Shown: in pieces, positions 20,357-57,340 of the stretch
Layout of the letters: every line of letters begins with the position of its first letter
How positions within the stretch are numbered: position 1 is the stretch's first letter
Assembly: GCA_012729455.1 (NCBI GenBank)
Contig: JAAYDC010000002.1
Location: 1-64,000, forward strand
Direction of reading: 5' to 3'
Length of the DNA stretch: 64,000 bases
Source: Chloroflexota bacterium
Lineage (GTDB): Bacteria > Chloroflexota > Anaerolineae > UBA1429
Program-made: the position numbers and the translations under genes
The notes under the pieces: generated by a model
What the model was told of the DNA's origin: nothing
What the model saw: the letters and a program-made list of their open reading frames with translations, nothing else
The model's database searches: none

Positions 20357-21490
20357 CTATAACCACTCGAGCAGTTCTGCCAAATAGCGCGTATAGGCGA
20401 TAAAGTCGGGCCAGCTGATATCAGGGGGCACGCCGTGGTCGCAGCTGGGGATGAATCCGCCTGTCTCGAGCAAGGGCGGCACCACCCGCTCGAGCTCGGT
20501 GCGCATTACACTGCCGCCCGCCGCTAGGGCGCGCTTATCCAGCCCTCCGCGGTAGCCCATCTGCGTGCCATAGGTGCGCCGTGCCGCCACAATGTCATTG
20601 CCGGCCGCCACTTCCATCGGGTCACAGACGTTGATGCCGGCCTCTATCCAGATCGGGATCAGCTCGCTCACCTCGCCATCCGAATCCATGTCGATCACCC
20701 GCACGCCCGCCTCGCGCGCCAGTTTGACCCATGCGCGATACACCGGCAGCAGGTAGCGGCGCGTCATGGCCGGCGAGAGCATGCTGTGAGCCTTGTAGGC
20801 CATATCCTCTGATATTTGCAGCACATCGATGGGGAGCTCGTCAAAGGCGCGCGTCAGCACTCGGCAGGTAAAGCGCTGCCAGAAATCGCACAACTCGGCG
20901 ATAAACTCGGGCTGCTCGATGAACGCCAGGCAGAGGCCTTCCATGCCCATCCATTCGCGCATCTGCCAAAATGGGCCGTTGATCGAGATGACAGCGGCGC
21001 AGCCGCTTGCGTGGATGCCCTCTGCCGCCGCCGCGGGATCGACCGGGTAACGCTCAGGCGCGTCGCCATCGTAGCGCCAGGCAAGCACCTCCCAGTCGGC
21101 CGGGCTCTCCACCGGGAAGCGGTGCCAGCGGCGCGTGACGAAATCCTTGGCGGTGCGGATATAGGTATAGTCGTAGGTGTCAGAGATCTCGGTGATGGCG
21201 CCCATCCAGTCCTGCACGATATAGTGCCCGTCGCGATGCTCCAGCACGCGCTCCTCAAAGGTGGGCAGCATGCGCGTCGAGATATCAACCCCCACCGGTC
21301 CGCTAAAGGCCTCGATCGGCAAGCCCAGCTCACGGCTGAGCGCAGCCAGATAGTGCTTGTCGGATGCAAGCCCCTGGCTGTGCCAGGCGGCGAGGGTCGA
21401 TTCGCGCGGTCCGCCGGGCATCAGCGGCACGCGCTCGGGCTGCCCAAAGGTGAGGGCCTCCAGGTAGCGCTCACGCGGGGTCGTCTGCAT
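20357..21490 (-). CDS. Uroporphyrinogen decarboxylase (UroD) family protein
   Basis: The 377-residue protein begins TPRERYLEALTFGQPERVPL, the usual opening of the UroD/MtaA superfamily. It continues with VDISTRMLP, QISEDMAYKAHSMLSP, VIDMDSDGEVSELIP and GYRGGLDKRALAAG. This branch (COG0407-like) includes methyltransferases and decarboxylases of unknown substrate. No haem-biosynthesis gene is nearby, so true uroporphyrinogen decarboxylation is unlikely to be its role. The frame starts 20 bases inside the end of the DprA-like gene, so the two are cotranscribed. Family assignment is firm and function is open. Confidence 0.75.
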   Translation of the reverse strand: MQTTPRERYLEALTFGQPERVPLMPGGPRESTLAAWHSQGLASDKHYLAALSRELGLPIEAFSGPVGVDISTRMLPTFEERVLEHRDGHYIVQDWMGAITEISDTYDYTYIRTAKDFVTRRWHRFPVESPADWEVLAWRYDGDAPERYPVDPAAAAEGIHASGCAAVISINGPFWQMREWMGMEGLCLAFIEQPEFIAELCDFWQRFTCRVLTRAFDELPIDVLQISEDMAYKAHSMLSPAMTRRYLLPVYRAWVKLAREAGVRVIDMDSDGEVSELIPIWIEAGINVCDPMEVAAGNDIVAARRTYGTQMGYRGGLDKRALAAGGSVMRTELERVVPPLLETGGFIPSCDHGVPPDISWPDFIAYTRYLAELLEWL

Positions 21491-22430
21491 CGTCGGCCTC
21501 CCTCAGTTGATGGCTCTCGCGAAGACGCCTGGCAAGGGCATCCGGCACGCGCCCGGTCTTGCCGAGCTCGCTGATGGCCGACTCGACGTCGCGAAAGTGC
21601 ACCGGCCCGGCCGGCGGTAGATCGAGCGATCCCCTGCCGCCATCGTGATGGGCATCACCCGCCAGCAGGGCATCCAACTCGGCCGGGCTGCCCGATCTCA
21701 CCACTGGCGGTAATGGCGGCAGCAGCTGGGCCAGCCAGACGGCGGATTCAGCCTCGCCGTTCGAGACGAGCACATCGCCCAGGGCGGCGGCCAGGGCGCG
21801 GCAGGCGTTCAGTAAAACGGCACTGGTCTGGATGCCGGGCGCCACCGGGCTCAGCAGGAGCGCGTGGTCGGCATCACAGGCGCGCACGAGAGGTTGGGGC
21901 AGTTCGGCTGCCTGCATGCCTTCCGGCAGCACCAGAATCTGAGCGCTATCCGCTGCCTGCCAGCTACCCTCAAACACGCTGACGAGCACCACCTCGTCTT
22001 GCGTGGCTGCCCAGGCGAGTAGCTCCGGCTCTGCAGCGCTGGCCATGGTCACTGTGGGCTGCCAGAGGAGCTCCAGGTTGCCGTGCAGATACACCACGTA
22101 GGGCAGATGCGCCTCATCCAGGCGCGCCAGCCACCCTTCGGGGTAGGCGGCATCGGCGCGCGTGATCACGCGGATACCCGTGCGCGCCAGGCTGGCTTGT
22201 TCGGCAGCGGCTCGTTCTGCGCCCTTGGGCAGCTCACGCAGCGCCCGCCAGAGCTTGTCATCTACCTCGCCAAGCACAGGGTCGCCGCGCTCGGCCTGCG
22301 GCAGGTCGCTGGCGGCGCGCCCCAGCTCGACGCACCATGAGTGCAGGAGCTGCTTGGCACGGTTGCGGCGGATAACGCACGATTCCAGCAGAGCCTGCCA
22401 CCAGGCGGATTCGGGCAACGCTTTACTCAT
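21471..22430 (-). CDS. DprA-like protein lacking recognisable core motifs
   Basis: The 319-residue protein opens with ESAWWQALLESCVIRRNRAKQLL. It then has GIRVITRADAAYPEGWLARL followed by PYVVYLHGN, which matches the segment preceding the Rossmann domain of DNA-processing protein DprA. The Rossmann part is present in outline (TVTMASAAEPELL, DADHALLLSPVAPG), but the usual SGxAxGID and RNRIIAGLS segments cannot be found. It may be a diverged or inactivated DprA. A longer frame starts at 22481; ATG 22430 is preferred because conserved sequence begins there. Its upstream region is shared with the coiled-coil gene on the opposite strand. Confidence 0.45.
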   Translation of the reverse strand: MSKALPESAWWQALLESCVIRRNRAKQLLHSWCVELGRAASDLPQAERGDPVLGEVDDKLWRALRELPKGAERAAAEQASLARTGIRVITRADAAYPEGWLARLDEAHLPYVVYLHGNLELLWQPTVTMASAAEPELLAWAATQDEVVLVSVFEGSWQAADSAQILVLPEGMQAAELPQPLVRACDADHALLLSPVAPGIQTSAVLLNACRALAAALGDVLVSNGEAESAVWLAQLLPPLPPVVRSGSPAELDALLAGDAHHDGGRGSLDLPPAGPVHFRDVESAISELGKTGRVPDALARRLRESHQLREADDADDPA

Positions 22431-22474
22431 GCCGCCCAGTATAGATGCCCCAATGCTGCTTGGCAATGAACCCT

Positions 22475-22503
22475 TTGACATGCCTGCTGCGCTCAGCTAC
22501 ACT
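22475..22503 (+). promoter_or_regulatory. Strong predicted promoter of the leader ORF / coiled-coil gene
   Basis: Consensus TTGACA (22475-22480) and TACACT (22498-22503) are exactly 17 bases apart. Transcription would begin near 22510, about 20 bases before the leader ATG. Confidence 0.7.
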
Positions 22504-22529
22504 AGCGACAATCACTACCGGAGGGCAAG

Positions 22530-22574
22530 ATGAGCGAGCAACCAGGCCACCAATCCGGTCGGGAGTGGGCATGA
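22530..22574 (+). CDS. 14-codon leader ORF coupled to the coiled-coil gene
   Basis: GGAGGG (22519-22524) lies 5 bases before ATG 22530. The frame reads MSEQPGHQSGREWA and stops at TGA 22572-22574, so its stop overlaps the ATG of the next gene as ATGA. The better Shine-Dalgarno belongs to this short frame, while the long gene has a weaker GGGAG. This is the usual layout for translational coupling. The peptide has no run of one amino acid that would suggest attenuation. It could also be a chance frame. Confidence 0.45.
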   Translation: MSEQPGHQSGREWA

Positions 22575-25201
22575 ACGCGGCCGCGATTTCCTGGTGGCAG
22601 CCGCTGGTGGTCGTGCTGCAGCTCGTCATCTTGGTGATGCTGCTGTCCTGGCTGGCACTCGCGGCCCTCAAATGGTCGCTGCTGCACTCGTACCGCTCAC
22701 GCGTTTCGGTGCTGGCTTATTACGACCGCCTCCTGCTTGCACTGGAAGATCACAAGCTCTTTTGGCCCGAGCAGTCCCAGTTTGGACCCTACCAACCGCC
22801 CGTCGAGGGTGCCTTTGGGCAGCTGCAGGCTTTTGAGACCTATCTGGAAGCTGCCGGCAGCATCGCCGAACCGCTGCGCACGGCGCAACTTCCTAGCTGT
22901 AGCCTGGCGGACATCGTCACATTGCGCTGCTGGGGTATGGTGCACAGCACCTGGCAAGTCTGGAAGCAAGTCAGGTTGCTGGCCGACCGCCTGAGCGATG
23001 CCACCAGCGCCTACACCGAACTGCAGAATTATCGCGAAAGGGTGCTGGCGATCCCTTCCGACGTGCGTGCTCAGGTGGCCTTGCGCCGTTACGAGCTCGA
23101 GCAGGCTGCGCTGCACCTCGAAAGCGAACGTGTGGTGCAGACCAATGGGCTGGATGCCTACGATACGGGCATCGGCTCGCTCGACCGCCAGATCAGCTCG
23201 CTGGAGAGCGACCTAGGCGAGAGCGGCGAGGTGGATCCCGCGGTACTCGAGCGCGCAACCGAGCTGCTCGGCTCGGTGACGCAGGGCATCAGCATCCTCA
23301 CCCATGACCTCTCAGCTCTCACCACCGCGCGCACCAGCGCCGAAGAAGCTCTTGAGCGGGATGCAGAGCTCCTGAGCAGCGTGCAGGATTGCTGGCGCGC
23401 TATTCAGCGCCGCGGATTCCGCGAACAGGCTATTGACGAGGTCCTGCTGGGCCTTGCCGCCTCGCGCGATGACCTGCAAACTCGCCTGAGCCAGCGCAGC
23501 CGCGAGGCCTTTCGCACCGTGTTGGCCCAGTCGGATGCCTACAACGAGCGCGTCCAGCTCCTGCAGGCCGACCTGGAGGGTATCGAGAACTCGCTGAGCG
23601 AGGTGGATGCCAACTTGCACACGGCTGCCGACGAGCTTTCCGCCGCCGGTGTGCTCTTGCGCACCTTCCATGAGCAATCTCCCCTCACGCATGCCGATGT
23701 GACTTCTGCCCTGTACGACACAGCCTCAGCGCAGCTGGCGGCTGCCAGTGACACGCGCCAGCAGGGCACGCGCGAGGCGCTAAAGACTGCGGGTGCCCAG
23801 GCTGACCTGTCGCGCCGCCAGGCTGCCGACGTGACGACGCGCATCGCCGTATTCCAGGAGCGCACCGGCACCACTATGATGCTCTGGCAGCGCCTCAACC
23901 ACGGCGACATCAGCGATCTTCGCGAGCGCATGGCCAAAACGGTGGCGCGTCTTGACGAATACCCCAAGCACCAGCCGGCCACCACCGAACTGCAGCGCAA
24001 CATCGAGCTGGCCCAGCGCGAGGCCGAATTGGCGCTCAGCTATATGAGTGCCGAACTGCGCGAACGCGGTGAAGTGATCGAATCACAGCTGGATGACACC
24101 CTCGAAGCCCTGCAATATGCCGCGCGCGGCACCGAATACGTGGCTGGCGGGATCGGCCAGCTCAACGAGCTGATCGAGGGTATCGAGAAAAAGCGCCTGC
24201 AGACCGAGCAGGAAGTGGCGATGCTGTTGTATGTCGACCTGCCGGCCGTCGAACAGCTCTCGGGCAGCATGCTGGTGGAGCTGCGCGAGACGCTCATCAA
24301 CCTGGCGATGACCATCCGCCGCGACGGCGCGCAGCTGCTTGATCCTTCCCAGACCGAATACGACCAGGCGCTGCGCTTTGTGCTGCCCAACCTGCGCCGC
24401 CAGCTCGACCAGGTGCGCAGCGCGCACGCCACCAATATCCGCCAGATGCAGCTGCAGTACGAGGCCGAGCGCAACCAGCTGGCGCGCTCGTGGGCGCAGC
24501 TCGAGTCGATCGACCTCTCGCAGCTGAGCGTGGTGGAACCCCTGATCGCCAAAGCCGAGGCGGAATATCAGGCCTGGCAGCAGGATACCGCCGAGGCGCA
24601 GGATAACCCCTACCTGATGAGCCAGGTGCTGGGCCGGCGCAGTGCCGAGCTCGACCAACGCCTGAATGCCCTGCAGTGCGACATTGCCGACGCACGTGTC
24701 TCGTTGAAGGAACTCGACAAGGCCTTTCAGCAGCGCTACAGCCAGGCCAACGCCATGCGCGAGCGCCTACGGCAGATCAGCGCTTCCAGCATGTGGCCGA
24801 ACCTGCCGTGGGATATCGAGGCTGACCGTTCATGGGCGCAGGTGGTCGAGATGCAAAAGCGCATCCAACAAGCTGACACCCTGCCGGCTCTGCTGGATGC
24901 CTGGCAGCACGCTTTGGGGGCTAGCACCGAGCTCGTCAAGCTCTATGAGCGGGGCGAGGCGCAGGCACGTGATGGGCTGGGACATCTGCAGAATGAGCTG
25001 AAAGCGGTGCAGGCTATCAAGCAGCGCGTGCAGCATCAGGCGGATGCCGCGATGCGCCGCGACGAGACCGACGAAACCCGCAAGCTGGCCAAACTGGTGG
25101 CACAGACCGATCATCTGATCGCCCTATCGCTCAAGGAAGCCCACTTTGATGCCGCAATGCGTCACCTCAAGCAGGCGCGCGAGGCGCTTATGAGGCTGTA
25201 G
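22571..25201 (+). CDS. Large membrane-anchored coiled-coil protein, unknown function
   Basis: The 876-residue protein has one N-terminal membrane helix (about residues 8-32, WWQPLVVVLQLVILVMLLSW). The remainder is almost entirely helical, rich in Glu, Gln, Leu, Arg and Ala, with heptad-like spacing broken by short turns. The layout of one N-terminal membrane segment plus a long cytoplasmic coiled coil is that of EzrA-like division regulators, but I see no sequence match that proves this. ATG 22571 is chosen because the membrane helix begins just after it and its start overlaps the leader ORF stop. Its 3' end overlaps the convergent pgsA-like gene by 14 bases. No enzymatic motif is visible. 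Confidence 0.75.
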   Translation: MNAAAISWWQPLVVVLQLVILVMLLSWLALAALKWSLLHSYRSRVSVLAYYDRLLLALEDHKLFWPEQSQFGPYQPPVEGAFGQLQAFETYLEAAGSIAEPLRTAQLPSCSLADIVTLRCWGMVHSTWQVWKQVRLLADRLSDATSAYTELQNYRERVLAIPSDVRAQVALRRYELEQAALHLESERVVQTNGLDAYDTGIGSLDRQISSLESDLGESGEVDPAVLERATELLGSVTQGISILTHDLSALTTARTSAEEALERDAELLSSVQDCWRAIQRRGFREQAIDEVLLGLAASRDDLQTRLSQRSREAFRTVLAQSDAYNERVQLLQADLEGIENSLSEVDANLHTAADELSAAGVLLRTFHEQSPLTHADVTSALYDTASAQLAAASDTRQQGTREALKTAGAQADLSRRQAADVTTRIAVFQERTGTTMMLWQRLNHGDISDLRERMAKTVARLDEYPKHQPATTELQRNIELAQREAELALSYMSAELRERGEVIESQLDDTLEALQYAARGTEYVAGGIGQLNELIEGIEKKRLQTEQEVAMLLYVDLPAVEQLSGSMLVELRETLINLAMTIRRDGAQLLDPSQTEYDQALRFVLPNLRRQLDQVRSAHATNIRQMQLQYEAERNQLARSWAQLESIDLSQLSVVEPLIAKAEAEYQAWQQDTAEAQDNPYLMSQVLGRRSAELDQRLNALQCDIADARVSLKELDKAFQQRYSQANAMRERLRQISASSMWPNLPWDIEADRSWAQVVEMQKRIQQADTLPALLDAWQHALGASTELVKLYERGEAQARDGLGHLQNELKAVQAIKQRVQHQADAAMRRDETDETRKLAKLVAQTDHLIALSLKEAHFDAAMRHLKQAREALMRL

Positions 25202-25820
25202 GTCCGCCGCGCTCAATTTCTTTCAGGTTGCTGGCGGCTTCTGCCACTACCGGGATGCCGCGCGCCAGGCACAGCACCAGCGCGATCCAAGTCGTAACAG
25301 TAAAAATCGTGTGCGCGGTTGTCACCCAGTCGGGCGGTACCGCGGCCCCTTTGGCGAATGCGGCGAGCGCATTCGTCAGCGCCAGCCCGGCAAACGAAAT
25401 CGCCTTGATAATGGCATAGCTGCTGCGCATCCACGGGCTGCCCACCAGCCACTTGCCCACACGCGTGCGCATGGTGCTAAAAGGCGCCACCCCGCGGCTG
25501 ATGCCAACGCTGCGCACTGAATCCACCGCCACCCCGCGCACGACAAAGATAAGCGGAATCACCACCGGCACCAGACGCAGATGCGCAAACACGATCCACA
25601 GCGCGAGCTCGACGGCACGGTCTGCCATGATATCCAGCACCGATCCCAAGAGCGAGGTCTCATTGCGCGATCGGGCAACATAACCATCCAGCGAGTCCAT
25701 CACGATCAGCAGGATCAGCAGCGGGACGCTGGCCAGCTTGGCCGGAGCACTCGGCAGATACAACAGCACAATGGCTAGGATGAGGACCGGAAAGCGCGCG
25801 ATGGTGATCAGGTTAGCCAC
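25188..25820 (-). CDS. CDP-alcohol phosphatidyltransferase family protein
   Basis: The 210-residue membrane protein has the family signature D-x2-D-G-x2-A-R-x8-G-x3-D-x3-D at residues 42-67 (Asp42, Asp45, Gly46, Ala49, Arg50, Gly59, Asp63, Asp67), complete. Hydrophobic segments before and after it fit about six membrane helices. Such enzymes transfer a phosphatidyl group from CDP-diacylglycerol to an alcohol, for example glycerol-3-phosphate (PgsA) or inositol phosphate. The acceptor cannot be told here. The GTG start lies 13 bases inside the ribF end, so it is the last gene of the nusA operon, a place where rpsO is more usual. Confidence 0.8.
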   Translation of the reverse strand: MANLITIARFPVLILAIVLLYLPSAPAKLASVPLLILLIVMDSLDGYVARSRNETSLLGSVLDIMADRAVELALWIVFAHLRLVPVVIPLIFVVRGVAVDSVRSVGISRGVAPFSTMRTRVGKWLVGSPWMRSSYAIIKAISFAGLALTNALAAFAKGAAVPPDWVTTAHTIFTVTTWIALVLCLARGIPVVAEAASNLKEIERGGPTAS

Positions 25821-56167: not shown

Positions 56168-57340
56168 TTACACACGCGGCTGGGTTTTACGCAGGAACGA
56201 CGGCACCTCTTCGTTTTGGCGCAGTTTGCTCGAGGTGCTCTGGAAGTCGATAATGCTGTTCGAGCGCCGGAACTGCTGCGTGGTGGTGGTTTGGGCCGGT
56301 TGGGCAACCTGCGCCGATGGCGTGGTCGAGTGCAGGTTCTGCGCTACCTCATTGCTCCGGATCGGCGCGCGTCCTGCGGATGGCTTGCTGGCCTGCGTAA
56401 AACCGGTGGCGATCACCGTCACCTGCACCATATCGCCCAGGGCTGGGTCGATGGCGGTACCAAAGATGATGTTGGCCTCCGGGTCGACCGTCTGCTTGAT
56501 CAGCTCGGCAGCCTCGTTGACCTCGATCAGCGTCAGCGAGTGGTCGCCCTTGATATTGTAGAGCACGCCCTTGGCGCCGTCGATCGAAACATCCAGCAGG
56601 CGGCTGGTGACGGCAGCCATGGCAGCGTCGGCAGCGCGGTTTTCGCCCTGGCCCACGCCGATCGACATCAGCGCCGATCCTCCGTTTGACATAATGGCGC
56701 GTACGTCGTTAAAGTCGACGTTGACCAGGCCGGTGCCGGTGATCAGCTCCGAGATGCCCTGAATGCCCATGCGCAGCATCTCATCAGCCGAGAAAAAGGC
56801 ATCCGCCAGTGAGGCGTTCTTATCGACAAACTGCAGCAGGCGGTCGTTGGGCACCACGATCAGGGTATCCACGTTGGCCTGCAGGGCGTCAATCCCGTCC
56901 ATGGCCGATTTCAGCCGGCGTGGGCCCTCAAAGGTAAAGGGCTTGGTAACGACGCCCACCGTAAGGGCGCCCAGCGACTTGGCAATTTTGGCCACCACCG
57001 CGGCGCCGCCGGTGCCGGTGCCGCCGCCCATGCCGGCCGTCACAAAGACCATGTCGGCTCCGCGCAAGAGTTCGGTAATATCCTCGGACGATTCCTCGGC
57101 CGCTTTGGTGCCGATGCTGGGGTTGCCGCCTGCACCCAGGCCGCGCGTGACCTGTGCGCCGATCTGCAATCTCATGGTGGCGTGGCTGTTACGCAACGCC
57201 TGTGCGTCGGTGTTGAGCGAGATATACTCGACACCGTCCATCTCGGTCTCGATCATGCGCTCGACGGCATTGCAGCCGCCGCCGCCGATCCCGACCACCT
57301 TGATCCTCGCCTTGCCGTTGTTGTCCTGATACACTGCCAT
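56168..57340 (-). CDS. ftsZ: Cell division protein FtsZ
   Basis: FtsZ is the tubulin-like GTPase that builds the division ring. The 390-residue product has the GTP-binding loops [15 protein letters not shown] and the tubulin signature [14 protein letters not shown]7 loop [15 protein letters not shown], a linker rich in Thr and Gln (TTTTQQF), and a conserved C-terminal peptide around VPSFLRK that recruits FtsA. GAGGAGAGG lies 8 bases before the ATG. It lies 21 bases downstream of ftsA. Confidence 0.96.

Follow-up and report, generated by a model that had tools for sequence, protein, structure and literature searches.

What kind of protein is encoded by a long, almost entirely helical reading frame that fits no family in the databases, and what could it do at the bacterial membrane? 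This question is raised by an 876-codon gene in the window, which is the whole 64,000-nucleotide stretch of Chloroflexota DNA analysed here. An earlier note had described the product as a single-pass coiled-coil protein laid out like EzrA, preceded by a near-consensus promoter and possibly an envelope or division scaffold specific to Chloroflexota. According to the available parts of the published descriptions, EzrA has an N-terminal membrane anchor and a rod of three-helix units (PMC4243239, PMC5354558, PMC4113482), and its bundles are right-handed (PMC5354558). In 2014, the available text of that report introduced it as the founder of a family of bacterial spectrins whose structural homologues were found in eukaryotes only (PMC4243239). 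A C-terminal patch with the QNR motif matters for the interaction of EzrA with FtsZ and FtsA, as far as the available portions of two papers go (PMC4113482, PMC12288466).

The gene, its start and its upstream region

The reading frame occupies 22571..25201 (+), from an ATG at 22571 to a TAG at 25199-25201, and encodes 876 amino acids. It is a real gene with a predicted membrane-anchored, spectrin-like product, and it is present as one copy in the source genome (2.64 Mb, 30 contigs, 99.2% complete). The frame is open upstream of the ATG as far as 22445. We favour the start at 22571 because the N-termini of several relatives read M-x-W-W or M-x-W; GGAG stands five bases 5' of this ATG.

The near-consensus promoter site reported earlier was found again. 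It is a sigma-70-like TTGACA-17-TACACT at 22475..22503 (+), recognised purely by its match to the consensus (10/12), and it is placed back to back with a promoter-like site on the minus strand (22466-22438), both standing between the 876-codon gene and its divergent neighbour. Within 22300-25500, the scan recognised 2 promoter-like sites, where shuffled sequence averaged 0.7. An exact TTGACA with TANNNT at a spacing of 16-18 bases was counted 5 times across the window, and 0.32 would be expected. The plus-strand site is plausibly the promoter of the 876-codon gene and local to the window's locus. An enolase-superfamily gene of the mandelate-racemase type lies just 5' on the same strand in nine of the 12 loci with upstream DNA from the window's taxonomic family (hereafter the first family), and is absent from the remaining three, those of the window, G006 and G010.

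A 14-codon candidate leader frame (MSEQPGHQSGREWA) lies behind GGAGG at 22530..22574 (+), and its stop overlaps the main start as ATGA. It could possibly be a leader for translational coupling; inspection by eye of the upstream stretches of eight relatives revealed no similar frame. On the minus strand, 21471-22481 encodes a DprA-like protein with weak DprA scores (E 0.049 in Pfam and 0.21 in NCBIfam). This protein may really begin near 22430, in which case a promoter-like site would directly precede its gene.

Searches against known families

Pfam gave no significant match to the window protein, the best one (E 0.24) reaching 12.1 bits where the cut-off is 27, and NCBIfam gave none up to E 1. 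Over 20 members of the family, the Pfam matches were scattered and weak, including PF00435 (spectrin) in three members with a best E of 0.027. PF06160 (EzrA) was among the comparisons proposed in the earlier note, for which a clear hit to a characterised family would have been the refutation; this model matched a single member at E 0.002 and 16.9 bits, under the cut-off of 39.6, and found nothing above cut-off in the window's own genome. The earlier statement that the protein has no recognisable family thus stands, as no Pfam or NCBIfam family covers it and the hits among the 20 members are weak or reflect coiled-coil likeness. Against solved structures, phmmer listed a phage capsid chain (E 0.087) and the EzrA fragment 4uy3 (E 0.37), and a 14-row family profile found apolipoprotein A-I (E 0.0015) and other generic helical chains, with EzrA absent among the profile's matches up to E 10. 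We took these sequence-only matches as composition and not as kinship.

The coiled-coil matches suggested a protein of the SMC, Rad50 or Lamassu type. TIGR02168 (SMC) matched nine of the 20 members (best 2.9e-8), Rad50 and SpiroCoCo models of NCBIfam matched others, and LmuB models of PADLOC matched up to 11 of the 20 (best 3e-10). The members resemble SMC, MukB and Lamassu LmuB in their long coiled-coil content, but they carry a membrane helix, and the Walker A and LSGG motifs of those ATPases occur in none of the 20. Moreover, matches to so many unrelated coiled-coil families look like composition; a separate paper, going by its available part, deals with how coiled coils match one another across families (PMC3695513). 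The ATPase reading is refuted by the missing motifs, generic coiled-coil likeness is what remains, and we give membership in these families almost no credence.

Distribution within Chloroflexota and two remote groups

A protein search found homologues in 14 of 60 relatives, all from the first family, with 57% identity to the window protein for the closest and 18-28% for the others. By profile search, 14 of the 15 first-family genomes carry a homologue, of which 10 are full length without internal stops and four are cut by contig ends (G005, G009, G011 and G013, the match in G011 with one TAA). The only first-family genome without a match, G004, is 82% complete. Among 80 loci with the neighbouring gene, 11 hold a family member, all from metagenome-assembled genomes labelled Chloroflexi or Anaerolineae bacterium.

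In a class-wide sample, the first-group profile matched 17 of 298 genomes, comprising the 14 first-family genomes, G212 from another family (E 2.1e-7) and two matches judged to be chance. That second family of the class has a homologue in 11 of 28 genomes, forming a remote sister group at 12-15% identity. The gene may be dispensable in the second family or too diverged to detect, since 17 of the 28 genomes gave no match and FtsZ is present in all six of the non-matching genomes that were tested for it. A further class sample yielded matches in 8 of 298 genomes, seven of them accepted and all from the second family, and a phylum sample of 400 genomes, with at most two candidates scored in each, yielded nine matches, of which four were accepted and five judged to be chance. 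The weak matches in G109, G066, G318, G425, G467, G542, G588 and G287 were rejected as chance; by reading, the rejected matches sit in seemingly unrelated frames for efflux-adaptor-like, chemotaxis-like, zinc-ribbon and other proteins. The suggestion of a Chloroflexota-specific protein agrees with these samples and can, within their scope, be narrowed, because the profile searches, which covered Chloroflexota genomes, gave accepted matches in two families of one class only.

The two group profiles aligned with each other by hhalign at 99.2% and a score of 171. Two reversed controls reached 20.7% (E 0.0011) and 41, and three shuffles of the columns 0.0-0.1% and 14-17. Composition must account for some of the raw score, since the reversed control still reaches 20.7% at E 0.0011. 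In the class sample, where no more than three candidates were scored in each genome, the second-group profile failed to match any of the 15 first-family genomes; likewise, a single second-group protein used as a query did not match any of the 10 first-family genomes that its sample listed. We consider the two groups to be related because the first-group profile finds G212, the profiles align and the predicted models match. The shorter g178 group did not match the window's group clearly on its own (24.1% against 0.3% for the control) and was joined to it through the second group (99.9%).

A predicted rod of three-helix units

We compared two AlphaFold2 models that were built from alignments sharing no sequence. 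The model of the window protein, from 14 aligned sequences, has a mean pLDDT of 89.4 and a pTM of 0.38 and is almost entirely helical, and the model of the remote group has a pLDDT of 89.9 and a pTM of 0.37. In both, an N-terminal membrane helix is followed by tandem three-helix units that share long helices. The helices of the first and second models nearly coincide up to about residue 360 (75-104 and 75-104, 195-215 and 195-214, 223-280 and 222-279, 286-306 and 285-307), helix 120-188 of the first corresponding to 119-186 in two pieces in the second. Past residue 360 or so, the helix lists drift apart and the long-short pattern of the second model becomes less regular. The pTM values of 0.37-0.38 leave the curvature of the rod unfixed by the models.

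In the first model, a helical unit at residues 40-158 (22688..23044, +), less regular than the rest, precedes about eight three-helix units at residues 159-876 (23045..25198, +), the borders being drawn by hand from the helix list. Eight long helices begin at residues 120, 223, 311, 401, 504, 597, 689 and 771, with a spacing of 82-103 and near 90, and alternate with short helices of 17-26 residues, such that every unit is made up of the final part of a long helix, a short one and the opening part of the long helix that follows. When the unit 157-250 was searched alone, it found designed antiparallel three-helix bundles (Z 13.2-13.5, rmsd 1.6-1.7). At the level of sequence, pairwise hhalign comparison of units with hand-drawn borders gave a mean of 10.4 against 8.4 for the reversed units, with 26 of the 36 pairs scoring higher, and only the last two units stood out slightly (31.6%). 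The repeats are thus visible in the predicted structure and barely in the sequence. The coiled coil proposed earlier holds insofar as the model is almost all helical, but the arrangement is better read as tandem three-helix bundles.

Structural comparison with EzrA, spectrin and vinculin

EzrA (PF06160; 4uxv and 4uy3) was the best natural structural match by VIA-align with both models. For the first model, 4uxv ranked fifth behind four designed bundles (Z 10.1, 481 of 522 residues, rmsd 19 Å); for the second, it ranked first (Z 12.7, 480 of 522 residues, rmsd 11.7 Å), and the S. aureus EzrA fragment 4uy3 ranked third (Z 11.3). Foldseek placed 4uxv second for the first model (E 0.17, probability 0.97), after vinculin (E 0.077, probability 0.28), and 4uy3 seventh for the second (E 0.53, probability 0.97). 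For helical repeats, however, a VIA-align Z below about 13 may indicate a common arrangement, and the EzrA alignment begins at residue 40 of one model and at residue 160 of the other. Because of these low Z values and the differing register, we read the fold match as the same kind of rod and not as common descent. The EzrA-like layout proposed in the earlier note is borne out in this sense by the fold comparison of the two predicted models with Foldseek and VIA-align.

The likeness to EzrA comprises the single N-terminal membrane helix with a rod probably on the cytoplasmic side, the predicted rod, whose three-helix units are connected through long helices that neighbouring units share, and a conserved patch near the C terminus. 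Conversely, EzrA has 562 residues and five units, whereas the window protein has 876 residues and about eight or nine predicted units. The EzrA units are bent in a semicircle that ends in a four-helix bundle; at a pTM of 0.38, the bend of the modelled rod is too uncertain for comparison with this shape. EzrA comes from Firmicutes in the available parts of the papers cited, and the present family from Chloroflexota relatives. Near its C terminus, EzrA bears QNR, letters that are absent in 22 of 23 members here; the single QNR, in L029 at residue 589 of 757, was judged to be chance. Because the motif is missing and the PF06160 score is under the cut-off, we do not file the protein as EzrA.

Eukaryotic spectrin repeats (PF00435), in which the connectivity of the three helices is left-handed, likewise form a tandem series of three-helix units linked by a continuous helix, but their profile scores weakly here and the present protein is membrane-anchored. 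Vinculin and talin rods are long and all-helical as well, and are built of four- and five-helix bundles. Vinculin has a better E-value than EzrA in both Foldseek lists, the best in the first, but with a lower probability (0.11-0.33), and vinculin and talin reach a VIA-align Z of at most 8.2 among the matches listed, under that of EzrA.

Membrane topology and conserved patches

The model and the hydropathy profile agree on one N-terminal membrane helix at about residues 9-39 (22595..22687, +), as claimed earlier, with positive charge on its C-terminal side; the best later 19-residue stretch reaches 1.15 against 2.86, leaving no second candidate. We counted charges in the 20 members with an intact N terminus, after dropping three 5'-cut rows from 23. 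Over the 15 residues that follow the most hydrophobic stretch, the charges sum to a positive value in 19 members and to zero in one; before the membrane helix the net charge ranges from -1 to +1. By the positive-inside rule, the positive flank of a membrane helix marks the cytoplasmic side. We therefore infer from the positive charge after the helix that the rod is cytoplasmic, as in EzrA. Were the helix inserted the other way, the rod would stand on the outer side of the membrane and act as an adhesin or a spacer, and helical-repeat surface proteins do occur in the fold list (the BibA fragment 6poo and EbhA 2dgj); the charge distribution speaks against this orientation, as do cysteines in 18 of the 20 members and LPxTG in none, and we consider it improbable.

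Conservation measured in 25-residue segments peaks at 851-875 (0.61); segments 51-75 and 176-200 come next (0.57). The alignment consensus WPxxPRxGRY defines a motif after the membrane helix at residues 65-74 (22763..22792, +). A C-terminal patch occupies residues 859-875 (25145..25195, +). Its usual form in the first group is F-[DE]-[ADE]-A-[LM]-R-x-L, of the F-E-D-A-L type, and in the second group it reads Y-A-E-G-L, Y-A-E-A-L, F-E-E-A-R or W-E-D-A-L. In 18 of 23 members, a pattern written after the alignment was seen falls within the C-terminal 50 residues, against a shuffled rate of 0.014 and 7 of 347 other sequence windows. Five members are without it, including one (L027) that is without its C terminus.

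Gene neighbourhood and division genes

A CDP-alcohol phosphatidyltransferase gene (PF01066; 25188-25820) is convergent with the 876-codon gene. BLAST places a relative of it close to the family gene, on the opposite strand, in 11 of 15 first-family loci; a twelfth locus with one, L028, is on the same contig as L082. A lipid A-type acyltransferase gene (PF03279), often convergent, was present in 11 of the 16 sequences searched, including the protein's own source. Two loci from Thermoflexales and Anaerolineae (L084 and L086), in which no family member was found, show by reading a phosphatidyltransferase gene, then an acyltransferase-like gene, then an SMC-like gene.

The second group has other neighbours. 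Its gene lies directly behind lon on the same strand in G212, G164, G257, G230 and G305, and in G110 a dGTPase-like gene stands between the two. An M16 peptidase gene is also among its neighbours, and the g178 members adjoin other genes. The second-family loci with the gene directly after lon are L054, L053, L058, L059 and L060; in L054 a gene with a Mur-ligase domain (folC-like) precedes lon, and L053 looks alike by reading.

No division gene was noticed beside family members in the loci of either group. In the window, the ftsZ match begins about 31 kb past the end of the gene and the ftsA match about 32 kb past it. Of 28 genomes tested, 27 have FtsZ and 26 have FtsA above cut-off, G002 and G305 having weak FtsA matches only, and none has SepF in a search that was positive in seven control genomes. 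At least two FtsZ-family matches were found in 11 of 15 first-family genomes (up to four, fragments counted), and 12 of the 13 second-family genomes tested have one such match and the other none. FtsZ-family matches were seen in the window at 56369-57328 (-) and at G000:C12:5919-6884. Few bacteria carry two ftsZ copies, according to the available part of a published account (PMC9871819).

Discussion

Computation supports the gene, the family, the membrane helix, the conserved patch and, through predicted models, the design of the rod. Taken together, they make it very probable that the protein is a membrane-tethered rod of tandem three-helix units and represents a new family; it is best read as another family, besides EzrA, of spectrin-like scaffolds at the bacterial membrane. 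The N-terminal helix would anchor the protein once in the membrane and hold a long cytoplasmic rod of about eight, or with the N-terminal one nine, spectrin-like bundles, in which the last helix of one bundle continues as the first of the next. Like that of EzrA, the rod may span or bracket FtsZ/FtsA filaments or other membrane-bound partners, and the conserved C-terminal patch may dock a partner.

By analogy with EzrA, the likeliest job, which we propose tentatively, would be that of a membrane-tethered scaffold at the FtsZ/FtsA ring; FtsZ, FtsA or another divisome protein is suggested as the partner by analogy only. Since FtsA, the usual anchor, is present in most of the genomes, an EzrA-type scaffold could work together with it, but equally elsewhere. 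Nearly as likely is a spectrin-like membrane scaffold that serves the envelope in general (cell shape, lipid-synthesis enzymes or filament stiffness) and not the FtsZ ring, a possibility for which the structural evidence is the same and to which the lipid genes near the first-family loci and the absence of a division gene seen adjoining lend support. These lipid genes are on the opposite strand and hence not in one operon, the second group adjoins lon or an M16 peptidase gene instead, and the closest build among proteins of known function is that of a division protein, all of which tells against it. The position behind lon in five second-group genomes, and one gene off in G110, could also point to a membrane-bound helper or organiser that recruits proteins to the Lon protease, but the g178 members adjoin other genes, and in the first-family loci, which were compared with the window's proteins only, we noticed no neighbour resembling lon; this role seems a long shot.

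Returning to the scaffold at the FtsZ ring, its most specific form would hold that an Anaerolineae lineage in which SepF gave no match possesses a second spectrin family, distinct from EzrA in sequence and with more units, acting as a Z-ring scaffold in which an F-E-D-A-L docking patch replaces QNR. As a whole, this form is rather unlikely. Among the literature matches listed, with subscription papers and preprints outside the scope, we found no paper reporting a spectrin- or EzrA-like family in Chloroflexota. If our reading of the protein is correct, a second membrane-tethered family would mean that this design is older and wider than the Firmicutes, or that it arose twice, and it would provide a concrete candidate scaffold for a poorly studied phylum.
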